DNA of 64,000 bases from Chlorobiaceae bacterium. Its GTDB lineage: Bacteria; Bacteroidota; Ignavibacteria; Ignavibacteriales; Ignavibacteriaceae. A program made the translations under genes and the position numbers. Location: the NCBI GenBank assembly GCA_013824085.1, contig PNNF01000012.1, positions 1 to 64,000 of the forward strand, read 5' to 3'. The notes beneath the pieces are model-generated. The model did not search any database and had not been told where the DNA came from. It saw nothing but the letters and a program-made list of their open reading frames with translations. Positions 48,114 to 53,228 of the stretch are shown here, in pieces (the stretch's first letter is position 1; the number at the start of each line of letters is the position of its first letter).

Positions 48114-49397
48114 CTAAGAATTGTTAGCCACTAAATTTTTGACGAATTCAGTAGTTACAGATTTTGGTCTAATAAGTGGAAGCATCATTCCACGATTCAT
48201 TACAGCTTGCGATGCAAAACCAAGTGCTCTTGATAATGCAAAGATGTTTGTGTAATATAAAAATTCTCTTACACCATAATGATACAAAAGTGCTCCTGAT
48301 ATAGCGTCGATATTTGGCCAAGGATCTTTTATTTTTTCTATAGTCTTCAAAATATCGGGAACAGTTTCAAATACTAATTTTACTGATTGAAAGATTGGTT
48401 CATCTGCACAATATTTATTTCCATACTTCATGAATGCTTCAAAGCGTGGATCAACAATTCTTAAAATTGCATGACCATAACCCGGAATAACTTTTCCTGC
48501 TTTTAGAGTTTCAGTTACGAATTGAATCAAATCTTCTTTAGTTGGAACGCCATTATATTTTTGATTTAATTTTATAATCCAATCGATACATTCTTGATTT
48601 GCTCTTCCGTGAAGCGGGCCTGCTAATCCATTAAATCCAGCGGACATCGAGTAATAAAGATCTGAGAGAGCTGAATTAACAGTAGCTGAGGTTAATGAAC
48701 TAACGTTACCACCTTCATGATCACAATGACAAACGAGGAATAATCTAAACAAATTATATATTTCTGTATTCTTATGATCGAGTCCCATCATATAAAGAAA
48801 ATCTGAAGTAAAATCCATATCAGGATCTGGTTGGATCAACTCGCCTTTATTAAATCTAAGTCGATAAATTGCTGCAGAGATACCCGGAAGTTTTGCAACA
48901 ATGTTCATCGAATCATCAAGAGTATGTTTCCAATATTCGTCTTTCTTACAACCCTTCTCGTAGTTCTTTGCGAAGACTGATTCTTTTTGCATCGACAATA
49001 ATGCTGCACTCAACATTGCCATTGGATGTGAATCTGAAGGCATCGCTTTCAAAACATCCCAAACATAATTAGGAACATTTTTTCTGGATTTTAATTCTGT
49101 TTGAAATTCGGTTAGTTCGGTTGGGGTTGGTAATTCTCCTGTAAGTAAAAGATAAAATATTTCCTCTGGTAAATACTCAGTTAAATCTTTTAGGAAATAA
49201 TTTCGAATTATTAATCCTTGGTCATCGGGTACGACCGATGTATCACAGCTTAACGACTTGATTCCTCGCATACCGCCATAGAGCTGGGAAACTGTTACGT
49301 CGGAAACTTTTATGTTTCCACTCGTCTTTACTAATTGTTGGACTTCTTGTTTCCATCCATCAATTTTTTGGGTGAGTTTTGTAATGAGTCCTGTCAT
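48114..49397 (-). CDS. gltA: Citrate synthase, mitochondrial (eukaryotic-like) type
   Basis: 427 residues, AAGGAG site before the ATG. It condenses acetyl-CoA and oxaloacetate at the start of the TCA cycle. The sequence follows the mitochondrial pattern rather than the usual bacterial hexameric one: HCDHEGGNVSSLTSATVNSALSDLYYS, NGLAGPLHGRANQE, GYGHAILRIVDPR and NIDAISGALLYHYGV. The catalytic His, His and Asp are in HGRANQE, GYGHAIL and NIDA. A similar enzyme was described in Geobacter and occurs in some relatives of this phylum. It has its own candidate promoter and a strong terminator, so it is a single-gene unit. Confidence 0.93.
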   Translation of the reverse strand: MTGLITKLTQKIDGWKQEVQQLVKTSGNIKVSDVTVSQLYGGMRGIKSLSCDTSVVPDDQGLIIRNYFLKDLTEYLPEEIFYLLLTGELPTPTELTEFQTELKSRKNVPNYVWDVLKAMPSDSHPMAMLSAALLSMQKESVFAKNYEKGCKKDEYWKHTLDDSMNIVAKLPGISAAIYRLRFNKGELIQPDPDMDFTSDFLYMMGLDHKNTEIYNLFRLFLVCHCDHEGGNVSSLTSATVNSALSDLYYSMSAGFNGLAGPLHGRANQECIDWIIKLNQKYNGVPTKEDLIQFVTETLKAGKVIPGYGHAILRIVDPRFEAFMKYGNKYCADEPIFQSVKLVFETVPDILKTIEKIKDPWPNIDAISGALLYHYGVREFLYYTNIFALSRALGFASQAVMNRGMMLPLIRPKSVTTEFVKNLVANNS

Positions 49398-49471: not shown

Positions 49472-49515
49472 TAAGAGTTAAAATATTTTTGAATTATTTT
49501 TTAAAATATTCAATC

Positions 49516-51654
49516 TCAATTCCAACCGAGCGAAAAACTAATTACAAAATTTCTTGGCATCCCAGGTTCTAAGAAGACTGGCGCACCTCCTACAAAATCT
49601 GGATTAATAAAAGCTGATGCTGCATATTTTTTGTCGAAGATATTATTCAAACCAAAAAATCCTTTAACATAAATTTTTTCAGTCAAATATATTTCTTTAT
49701 TTGTTCCAAAAGAAAAACTTAGAATATTATAATTAGGAACAGTAATAGTGTTTGCATCATCAACAAAATATTCACCAACACCTGACAATGACATTTGAAT
49801 AAAAAGATGATTAAAAAAAGTTGGAGTATATTTTAGTTCTAAATTGTAAAACAGATCAGGAATCCCCGCAACTTTATTTTCAGAATAATCTGCGAATCTG
49901 TTTATCTTCGTTTTGTCGTAATGAACTGAATCAACTTTATAATCTTCATATCGATTATTTGAATATGTTACTGCAGTGCGAAGCGTTAAGCCTTCATCAA
50001 ACATTAACGTTGCACCAAACTCTGCACCGATTCTACTTGTTTCTCCCGCAGTAAAATAAAATCTTCCACCTTGATATGGAATAATATCGTTCTTAACAGA
50101 AATTGAATAGAGTGATAATTCATAATTAACTGCGTGTAAAAATAAATTATCAAAATTGATTGCGTGCTTTGTTCCCAATTCTAAAGTAGTTGAAGTAATC
50201 GGTTCGAGCAATGGATTCAATGCGAAAACAGTGTCTTGACCAAATGTGTTTGCGGGATCTGTTTCATTTCCAGCGGGAACTTCTACTCCGCCGCCAAAAT
50301 TTAAAAATAACATATGTCTCTCTGCAAAGCGATAGGTGAAGCCAAACTTAGGAGTAATTTTTGTAAATGATTTACTCTGTAGTTTTACTATTGGTGCCAT
50401 GAAACTTTCGTTTGAATAAGTTATGTTATCATATCTTGCACCCGCGAGAAAAGTAATTTGATTATTAAGAATTAATTCATTCTGAACAAAAGAGCCGAAT
50501 GTATTTGCACCTTCTCTTTTATTAGTCCTGAGCGTTGTGCCTCTTCCTCCAGTTGGAGTTAGTGAATAAAATAAAATTGCTCCATCTTGATATGCTTGGT
50601 CTATTCCAAACAAAAATTTATTTTCTAAATTACTCGTAATGTTCATTAAGTTTTTATATAGAAAATTTCCGCCGACATGATAACGAGTGAAATCTCTAAA
50701 TGTATTTCTCTCCGATCTTTGTAAAAATTTCGGATTAACAAAAACCATTGATGATATTGAGTTTGACTCATCAAAATTATAATCAAATGTTAGTCCCATT
50801 CTCCCGAGTCGATTGAATCTTCTTTCACTTCGCATTTTATAAGTTGGGTTCGCCATTGTAATTGATGAATCAAATTGCTTTTGTGATAATGGACCGGGAA
50901 TATGAAACAGATTTTCCGTTGCAGCTAAATAAACACCAAGATTAGATTTATTACTCAACGCAGAATTAATTCCGAAATTAATTATTCCTCTTTTGCTTCG
51001 TGAATTTTCTCGCCATCCATCAAAATATGTTTGCGAAAAACTTCCAAATATTTTTGATTCATTAAAAGTTGTGCCTGCTTCAAAAGTATATTTGTTTAAT
51101 CCATAACTTCCAAATAATGATTGAACATTAGTGAATGGATTATCTGTGGTTGGAATTAGCGAGACATTTAAAATTCCTCCTGAAGCATTTCCCCAAATTG
51201 CAGAGGCGTTAGAGCGAATTATTTCCATTGATTTAGCAAGTGAAAGATCGATTAAATCAAATGCTGTTCGTCCATCTGGTTCTGTTTCGGGAATACCATT
51301 AGTCATAACTCTTATTCCTCGTGAGGTGCCTGCGTTTGATCTGTCGCCTGCTCCACGTGCACCAAATCCGCGTATAACAATTCTAACATCTTGATTTCCA
51401 TATCGCGATTGTGCTAACACTCCTGGCACTGATGAGAGGACTTCATTCAATCCATAGCCAATAATTGGATTTACTTTATCAAAATTAATTATCGTTATCG
51501 ACATAGGAATTTCAAAAATATTTTCCGCATATCTCATAGCAGTTATCGTTACAGGAGAAAATTGTATCTTTACAGTATCAGATTCTTGCTGTTGTGCAAA
51601 ATTTTGAAATGAAATAATGAACAAGAAAAAAACTAATGTCATTTTTTTTAACAT
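49516..51654 (-). CDS. TonB-dependent outer membrane receptor (siderophore/metal type)
   Basis: 712 residues with a signal peptide (about 1-20). A TonB-box-like segment VKIQFSPVTITAMR leads into the plug (about 45-165, EVLSSVPGVLAQSRYGNQDVRIVIRGFGARGAGDRSNAGTSRGIRVMTNGIPETEPDGRT). The barrel follows and ends FVISFSLGWN. There is no CarboxypepD_reg domain, unlike the receptor at 4871-7681. The plug most resembles FecA-like ferric-citrate or siderophore receptors, so iron or another metal complex is a reasonable guess. It is divergent from a glycosyltransferase gene and not near the Fur-Feo operon. A TATATTTG box at 51735-51742 could be its -7 element. Confidence 0.88.
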   Translation of the reverse strand: MLKKMTLVFFLFIISFQNFAQQQESDTVKIQFSPVTITAMRYAENIFEIPMSITIINFDKVNPIIGYGLNEVLSSVPGVLAQSRYGNQDVRIVIRGFGARGAGDRSNAGTSRGIRVMTNGIPETEPDGRTAFDLIDLSLAKSMEIIRSNASAIWGNASGGILNVSLIPTTDNPFTNVQSLFGSYGLNKYTFEAGTTFNESKIFGSFSQTYFDGWRENSRSKRGIINFGINSALSNKSNLGVYLAATENLFHIPGPLSQKQFDSSITMANPTYKMRSERRFNRLGRMGLTFDYNFDESNSISSMVFVNPKFLQRSERNTFRDFTRYHVGGNFLYKNLMNITSNLENKFLFGIDQAYQDGAILFYSLTPTGGRGTTLRTNKREGANTFGSFVQNELILNNQITFLAGARYDNITYSNESFMAPIVKLQSKSFTKITPKFGFTYRFAERHMLFLNFGGGVEVPAGNETDPANTFGQDTVFALNPLLEPITSTTLELGTKHAINFDNLFLHAVNYELSLYSISVKNDIIPYQGGRFYFTAGETSRIGAEFGATLMFDEGLTLRTAVTYSNNRYEDYKVDSVHYDKTKINRFADYSENKVAGIPDLFYNLELKYTPTFFNHLFIQMSLSGVGEYFVDDANTITVPNYNILSFSFGTNKEIYLTEKIYVKGFFGLNNIFDKKYAASAFINPDFVGGAPVFLEPGMPRNFVISFSLGWN

Positions 51655-51820
51655 ACTAAATCCTCAATAAAATCAGATTGGAATTGACGTAGAATATTTA
51701 ATAATTATATCGTTACTCTGTATAATTTTAATTGCAAATATAATTCATTCTGAAAGTATTAAAAAAGTCTTTTCGGAATCAAGATTTGTTGCTGATAATT
51801 TTTCTAAGGTTTCTGTTGTT

Positions 51821-52765
51821 GTGGCTATGAAGAATGAAGAAGATAATTTAGGAAAATTGATCACTTCCCTTTCTGAACAAAATTATCCATCAGAATTATT
51901 TGAAATTATTTTGGTTGATGATTCTTCAACTGACAATACTTTTTCAAGAGCAAAAAAAATAATTGAAGGAAAAAATAATTTTAGAATTATTAGTGCTTCA
52001 AAAAAAATTATGCAAGGAAAAAGAGGAGCATTGCAAGTAGGAATAAATTCTGCAAAGCATAATTTTATTTTGATAACTGATGCAGATTGCACTCACTCGA
52101 AAAATTGGATTCAATCAATGGCAACGGCTTTATCAGAAAATGATTTTGTTTTTGGTATCGCTCCTTTCATTCAAAAAAAATCGCTTACAAATTTAATTTC
52201 TTGTTATGAAAATTTTCGTGCGTTCTTTTTGATGTTCTCTTTGTGTCAACTTGGATTTCCTTATTCATCAACCGCAAGAAGTTTAGGTTTTAGGAAAGAG
52301 ACGTTTAACAAAATAAATGGATATGATGGGACTGATAAAACTATTAGTGGCGATGATGATTTATTACTCCAAAAATTTGTAATGAATAAAAAGAAAATTT
52401 CAGAGGTTACAAATTCTTTTGTCTATTCAGAAACGAAAGAAAGTTTTAAGGATTATATAAATCAAAGAGGAAGACACACCAAGAGCTCATTCCATTATAG
52501 TTTAGCGACAAAATCAATTTTGGCTTTATGGCATTTGATAAATCTCTTATCAGTTTTTTCAATATTATTTTTCGCATTGAGTATCAATTTCATTTTTCCG
52601 TTTCTTCTAAAAATTATTTTTGACATCTATTCAACTATTAAGCATCAGAATAAGTTTGGCTATAATTTCAAAATCTATGAAATATTTTTCTTACAAATTA
52701 TTTACGAATTGATGTTGGTTGTGAATTTATTTTCTTCAATATTAATCACTCCCAAATGGAAATAA
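51821..52765 (+). CDS. Family 2 glycosyltransferase, membrane-anchored; N-terminus probably longer
   Basis: 314 residues if read from the GTG at 51821. GT2 motifs: KNEEDNLGKLITSL, VDDSSTDNT, the metal-binding LITDADC, GDDDLLLQKF and the QRGRHTKSS acceptor-side motif. Two or three membrane helices lie at the C-terminus (about 235-310). The GTG start would cut off the first beta strand of the fold. In the same frame, with no stop back to 51671, the codons encode a hydrophobic helix (YLIIISLLCIILIANII) and the strand VSVVVAMKNEE, exactly as in full-length relatives, but no ATG, GTG or TTG occurs there. It likely makes an envelope glycan or glycolipid. Confidence 0.82.
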   Translation: MAMKNEEDNLGKLITSLSEQNYPSELFEIILVDDSSTDNTFSRAKKIIEGKNNFRIISASKKIMQGKRGALQVGINSAKHNFILITDADCTHSKNWIQSMATALSENDFVFGIAPFIQKKSLTNLISCYENFRAFFLMFSLCQLGFPYSSTARSLGFRKETFNKINGYDGTDKTISGDDDLLLQKFVMNKKKISEVTNSFVYSETKESFKDYINQRGRHTKSSFHYSLATKSILALWHLINLLSVFSILFFALSINFIFPFLLKIIFDIYSTIKHQNKFGYNFKIYEIFFLQIIYELMLVVNLFSSILITPKWK

Positions 52766-52835: not shown

Positions 52836-53228
52836 ATGGATTACACACTTTTAGCGGCTCAAGCCATTCAGGCAAAAAAAATATCACTCCCCACTTATTC
52901 AAATTTTCACGTAGGCGCAGCATTACTAACAGCAGATGATAAAATCTACTTAGGTGCAAATATTGAAACGAGTTCATATAGTTTAACTATTTGTGCTGAA
53001 CGAACTGCGATATTCAAGGCGATACTTGAAGGCGAAAGAAAATTTAAAGCGATAGCAATTGCAAGTGATGCAGAAGATTTCATTGCTCCTTGTGGGGCGT
53101 GTCGTCAAATAATTTCTGATCTCTGCGGTGAGATAGATATAATTATGACTAATCAAAAAGACGAATTAAAAATATTAAAAACTTCTCAACTACTCCCATT
53201 CGCATTTAGTGACAAGGACTTACAATAG
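52836..53228 (+). CDS. cdd: Cytidine deaminase
   Basis: 130 residues. The zinc enzyme turns cytidine and deoxycytidine into uridine forms. The zinc-binding and proton-shuttle motif is TICAERTAI, and the second metal segment is PCGACRQ. NFHVGAALLTADDKIYLGANIE is the substrate-binding stretch. It is the first gene of a nucleoside salvage operon, stopping right before the tdk start codon. Confidence 0.95.
   Translation: MDYTLLAAQAIQAKKISLPTYSNFHVGAALLTADDKIYLGANIETSSYSLTICAERTAIFKAILEGERKFKAIAIASDAEDFIAPCGACRQIISDLCGEIDIIMTNQKDELKILKTSQLLPFAFSDKDLQ

Follow-up and report, generated by a model that had tools for sequence, protein, structure and literature searches.

A GT2 glycosyltransferase gene without a recognizable standard start codon beside a divergent TonB-receptor-like gene in Ignavibacteria

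Initiation at codons other than ATG, GTG and TTG is best known from infC, the gene for IF3, which can start at AUU, AUC or AUA. Additional cases are described in Staphylococcus aureus where, in the sections of PMC13009471 that deal with these genes, cvfC1 is assigned an AUU start, and ccpN and citZ are assigned AUA starts, that of citZ being lineage-specific; the same sections put the yield from a lineage-specific rare start at about 10% of that from AUG in poor medium. In Streptomyces, the start of sigR is reported to be GTC (PMC5472188, in the part that concerns this gene). For Ignavibacteria, a published survey gives, in its entry for this group, a Shine-Dalgarno (SD) use of 32% (PMC10783764). 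Among open-license PMC papers, no description of non-standard starts in Ignavibacteria was found, and the titles and abstracts of such papers mention no rare start of trmH.

The gene analyzed here lies in a window of 64,000 nt, the whole stretch of DNA that was examined, and its frame is open over 364 sense codons followed by a stop (Table 1). All three standard start codons, ATG, GTG and TTG, are absent between the in-frame TAA that bounds the frame upstream and the homologous N-terminus of the protein. The initial annotation had described a frame without stops or standard starts from 51671 to the GTG at 51821, and this description is borne out: the first ATG, GTG or TTG is codon 51, and the next one is the ATG at 51827. 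Start-free stretches of 50 codons are commonplace, accounting for 14.8% (1885 of 12751) of those inside 30 window genes; as judged from the alignments, the unusual feature is that the startless stretch covers the homologous N-terminus, rather than the bare absence of starts from 50 codons. In the frame of the GT2 gene, the stretch 51671-51820 has a codon log-odds of +19.3 bits; in each of the other five frames, the value is below 0. Given that homology to the relatives begins at about residue 9 (residues 5-12 in most), that codon usage is coding in this single frame, and that a helix and the first strand of the fold are modeled here, the first 50 codons can be considered genuine, if predicted, protein-coding sequence. 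In the 64-kb window, no other gene-like frame whose 5' part is clearly coding lacks a start.

The predicted protein matches PF00535 with a score of 91 bits for the full frame and 84.8 bits for the form that begins at the GTG (curated cut-off 23.3), and PF13641 and other families match the frame as well; no NCBIfam equivalog reaches the cut-off. The residues of the GT2 motifs are retained (D84, D88, D137, D139, D228-D230, Q265 and R268). An AlphaFold2 model built with 24 sequences shows the N-terminal helix and strand 1 listed in Table 1 and three long helices close to the C-terminus, in agreement with the helix and first strand that had been read from the upstream stretch. Strand 1 is part of the product only if initiation occurs upstream of 51809. 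The earlier statement that a start at the GTG removes this strand requires an amendment: most of residues 47-53 would be lost, but V51, A52 and M53 would be retained. Among solved structures, hyaluronan synthases have the closest fold (7sp7, TM-score by query 0.72). Altogether, the gene is predicted to encode a complete, membrane-anchored GT2 glycosyltransferase and to lack a standard start. Gene callers that consider only ATG, GTG and TTG would annotate it without most of its first strand.

Table 1. Coordinates of features of the glycosyltransferase locus and of related startless genes (SD duplex energies in kcal/mol; SD, Shine-Dalgarno)
Feature	Position	Strand	Remarks
Citrate-synthase-like gene	48114..49397	-	directly divergent from GT2 in L026, L027
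Imperfect 27-nt inverted repeat flanking the TonB gene	49499-49525 (left); 51678..51704 (right)	+ (right)	right arm covers the position where GT2 would be expected to start
Divergent TonB-dependent receptor-like gene	49516..51654	-	ATG ~30 nt away from where GT2 would be expected to start
In-frame stop TAA	51668..51670	+	bounds the GT2 frame upstream
GT2 glycosyltransferase open frame	51671..52765	+	PF00535, E 1.1e-25
Predicted N-terminal helix, residues 2-35	51674..51775	+	AlphaFold2 model, mean pLDDT 90.5
ATT, residue 3, candidate rare start	51677..51679	+	1/87 starts aligned; no SD, duplex +2.1
ATT, residue 5, candidate rare start, preferred by position	51683..51685	+	16/87 starts aligned; no SD, duplex +0.4
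GTA, residue 7, candidate rare start, best upstream pairing	51689..51691	+	6/87 starts aligned; SD duplex -3.3
Predicted GT2-fold strand 1, residues 47-53	51809..51829	+	AlphaFold2 model
GTG, earliest standard start codon of the GT2 frame	51821..51823	+	codon 51, within strand 1; SD duplex -3.3
Cytidine-deaminase-like gene	52836..53228	+	conserved downstream neighbor, 33/48 orthologous loci
Startless trmH-like genes	L266 = own genome C2:38953-39555; L284; L295; L323	+ (L266)	

Homologs were collected in a scan of the order, in which 107 of 164 genomes had a match at E <= 1e-50, and 104 of these 107 loci were obtained; the named relatives are mostly metagenome-assembled genomes (MAGs) of Ignavibacteriales, Ignavibacteriaceae and Melioribacteraceae, which makes an origin of the window, itself part of a MAG, in Ignavibacteria very probable. 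No other genome of the same genus was found; a single-protein scan of the named genomes for close relatives gave no match, and a second scan gave identities of 27-50% only. Among the 104 rows, ATG is present before strand 1 in 84, GTG or TTG only in 14, and none of the three in the window; the remainder consists of four loci cut by contig ends (two with ATG, one with TTG, one with none) and one without the N-terminal block. A second set of 80 loci contained 77 with this block, 65 of which were duplicates and 12 new. A standard start before strand 1 is thus found in all other complete members (98/98 and 12/12, or 110/110), and the startless condition is unique to the window (0/110). None of the 110 starts at the AMKNEE position, which supports the earlier proposal that the enzyme extends upstream of the GTG; homologs with such a start, named in the initial annotation as a refutation, are thus absent from this set.

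The 98 aligned members comprise 87 long forms (72 with ATG, 14 with TTG and 1 with GTG) and 11 short forms that lack the helix and start 2-22 residues ahead of strand 1; no start falls within or past this strand. In 68 of the 87 long forms, the start aligns with residues 5-9 of the window protein, where the window codons are ATT, GAC, GTA, GAA and TAT. In the loci L020 and L098 (genomes G054 and G148), stops are found in the helix-coding stretch upstream of the short-form ATG, as though decay had removed the N-terminal helix and left only the short form.

The near-cognate ATT codons at residues 3 and 5 lie around the homologous start positions, but none of the candidate rare codons is preceded by a strong SD, the best being that of the GTA at 51689 (-3.3 kcal/mol); for the following three ATA or ATT codons of the frame, upstream pairing is between -0.3 and +0.2. 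Pairing of -4 or better is found for 13 of 44 window genes, compared with 9% of random sites. Without a good SD, initiation from the candidate codons is expected to be weak. No structured RNA family of Rfam was detected within 51400-52000, and a promoter scan revealed no clear site near the gene; promoter-like hits numbered 9, against 3.5 +/- 1.7 in shuffled sequences, with the excess on both strands.

Rare starts are apparent elsewhere in the clade. In infC of the same genome (L031), the region around the N-terminus contains no standard start; the frame opens with GAGGTC ATA ATC GCA, and an SD of -6.5 kcal/mol precedes the ATC. A standard start is missing from infC in 26 of 30 Ignavibacteria-family genomes (L031, L059-L087). 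With the codon chosen by energy, a choice that falls on one shared alignment position in nearly every frame, the best rare codon of these genes is ATC in 19, ATT in 6 and ATA in 1, behind an AGAGG-type SD with pairing from -4.3 to -12.1 and, with a single exception, of -5.8 or lower. When 462 kb of the source genome (the window and 20 further stretches) were scanned for gene-like frames with the first start deep inside, infC, the GT2 gene and two frames that we take to encode a TrmH-like methyltransferase and an ECF-sigma-like protein were recovered. Among 55 trmH frames, four lack a standard start (own genome, G007, G032 and G026); in all four, ATC or ATT occupies one common alignment position behind an SD of -5.2 to -6.3, where these genes probably start. 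Rare starts in this clade thus probably extend beyond infC and, as far as can be read from sequence, the clear cases nearly always come with a strong SD. The rare start (ATT or ATA) that had been suggested for the GT2 gene is in line with the use of ATC and ATT elsewhere in the clade; what does not fit is the lack of the SD that accompanies those starts.

The ECF-sigma-like gene (L296; C1:91393-91917 of the same genome, minus strand) has no ATG, GTG or TTG in its first 35 codons; its ATA and ATT candidates are weakly paired (best -2.4 and -3.5), and many relatives have an ATG nearby. In another frame of this genome (C2:30250-31293, plus strand; L254:10250 region), which is prfB-like, no start is present near the 5' end, and a small ATG-led frame lies just ahead of it; this frame was set aside as a rare-start gene because it looks like prfB, presumably with the programmed frameshift of RF2. 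Three further frames from the scan were also set aside because, by our reading of the sequence, they are antisense to likely genes. It is unlikely that Ignavibacteria tolerate AUC, AUU and AUA (perhaps also GUA) as a regular class of low-expression starts well beyond infC, which would include trmH, the ECF-sigma-like gene and the GT2 gene of the window, the latter two without a strong SD, and would imply that annotation restricted to ATG, GTG and TTG truncates or misses genes phylum-wide.

The upstream neighborhood of the gene differs from those of its relatives. The neighbor genes are presumably citrate-synthase-like, cytidine-deaminase-like, thymidine-kinase-like, NupC-like and helicase-like, as we name them here. 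Downstream, genes of the thymidine-kinase-like and NupC-like families often accompany the cytidine-deaminase-like gene. Upstream, several relatives have a codirectional helicase-like gene that touches or overlaps the GT2 gene, and overlaps of 4 or 25 nt between the two are frequent; in the window, by contrast, the TonB-receptor-like gene sits between citrate synthase and GT2. Since none of 48 orthologous GT2 loci has a TonB-receptor gene beside GT2 and none of 19 loci of the TonB gene has citrate synthase or GT2 beside it (flanks of up to 1.5 kb, less at contig ends), the upstream junction appears to be new in the lineage of the window, with the TonB-receptor gene as the putative newcomer. Homology of the GT2 protein begins just inside this junction. 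A promoter-proximal change that removed the start, also raised in the initial annotation, has gained support from the fact that the divergent TonB-receptor gene adjoins GT2 in no other sampled genome.

No remnant of the ancestral start was recovered. The helicase-like gene of the same genome is on a separate contig, followed by a convergent gene, and has no left-behind GT2 start next to it; at the end of the TonB gene that faces citrate synthase, no sequence aligns with L026 or L027. The inverted repeat that flanks the TonB gene was considered as the terminal repeat of an inserted element. Its arms are 81% identical, a level matched in 22 of 1000 ungapped and 102 of 1000 gapped shuffles, that is, near chance, and its 22-nt core has only two hits in 462 kb, as the two arms themselves would give; it is kept only as a lead.

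The tentatively preferred explanation, to which we would give somewhat less than an even chance, is that this lineage lost the standard start at the TonB junction and that a non-standard codon, with ATT 51683 and GTA 51689 as the likeliest candidates, continues to give small amounts of the full-length enzyme. Under this scenario, the TonB-receptor gene would have arrived upstream in divergent orientation, and the standard start would have been lost upon its insertion; the initiator tRNA would then read a non-standard codon within 51677-51691, as in infC, and weak initiation at one of the two codons would maintain a low level of the enzyme. That 15 of the 87 long forms already start at a codon other than ATG was counted in favor of this explanation. 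The role of the insertion as its cause is circumstantial, given that the inverted repeat is near chance and that, in L008, the GT2 start is kept despite a divergent gene 13 nt away. Two further observations weigh against a rare start, namely that no relative shares the absence and that the duplexes of the three candidates (+2.1, +0.4 and -3.3) fall short of those of the startless infC and trmH genes.

The same observations lend some weight to a rather less likely alternative, in which the loss of the start is real and recent and the gene is no longer usefully translated, so that decay is beginning and the intact appearance reflects a young loss: no candidate has an SD, although the startless infC and trmH genes of the clade carry one, the loss is unshared, and the upstream neighbor is new. 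Such decay is at odds with the state of the frame, which is unbroken over 364 codons. At the 45 alignment positions where conservation among 98 relatives reaches 90% or more, the window differs only once (S200 instead of A), compared with 0 to 13 differences in other members. The sequence error considered at the outset, either a wrong consensus or a mixture of strains in the MAG that conceals a standard start of the true sequence, is improbable. The genome is a draft of 75 contigs, every relative has a start, and no SD backs a rare one, all of which would fit an error; but broken genes are not evident elsewhere in the frame list of the 64 kb, and for an error to hit a start codon is, we reason, unlikely a priori.

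Quite improbable, too, is initiation of the true product at GTG 51821 (or ATG 51827), which would leave out the helix and the greater part of strand 1. A TAAGG-type site (duplex -3.3) does lie upstream of this GTG, a promoter-like site at 51698-51726 could give a transcript that begins after the upstream candidates, and 11 of 98 relatives do without the helix. Nevertheless, all 11 begin before strand 1 and none inside it, the 50 codons ahead of the GTG show both coding character and homology, the Pfam and NCBIfam scores persist yet drop without these residues, and the promoter-like hits are weak; the short product is therefore unlikely to be the enzyme. The least likely explanation, with a very small probability, is translation coupled to a 17-codon frame (ATG 51617 to TAA 51668), after which ribosomes would restart at ATT 51677 or 51683. 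This frame ends 6 nt ahead of ATT 51677, and overlap with an upstream gene, frequent for GT2 in the relatives, may make weak starts tolerable; the frame, however, is antisense to the signal peptide of the TonB protein, so that a transcript antisense to the start of the TonB gene would be required, and it may well have arisen by chance.

The use of rare starts in this phylum is indicated by infC and trmH. If the rare start of the GT2 gene is real, a metabolic membrane enzyme joins a very short list of such genes; if the start was lost instead, the locus would be a clean case of an arriving neighbor gene taking a start codon. As it stands, the GT2 gene would be a weakly supported new case of an already known phenomenon, a gene without a standard start.

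With the GT2 membrane glycosyltransferases (PF00535; 7sp7), the predicted protein shares the sequence family, the fold and the conserved acidic and QxxRH motifs; it is shorter than the hyaluronan synthase of 7sp7. With the infC genes that start at AUU, AUC or AUA, one of which is present in the same genome, it shares a conserved protein without ATG, GTG or TTG at the N-terminus, but the rare starts of infC are conserved in the family and come with a strong SD, and the GT2 gene has neither. The cvfC1, ccpN and citZ genes of S. aureus are likewise genes other than infC that are read from AUU or AUA, with reduced yield, and citZ resembles GT2 in being lineage-specific; in the relevant sections of PMC13009471, however, initiation was measured, and extended SD motifs are described at the sites of cvfC1, ccpN and infC. 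The sigR gene of Streptomyces, in the part of PMC5472188 that describes it, differs in its strong ribosome-binding site, its conservation throughout Streptomyces and the proof of its start by Edman sequencing and mutation; as proposed for the GT2 gene, its start lies outside ATG, GTG and TTG and was hidden by the wrong annotation of a GTG.
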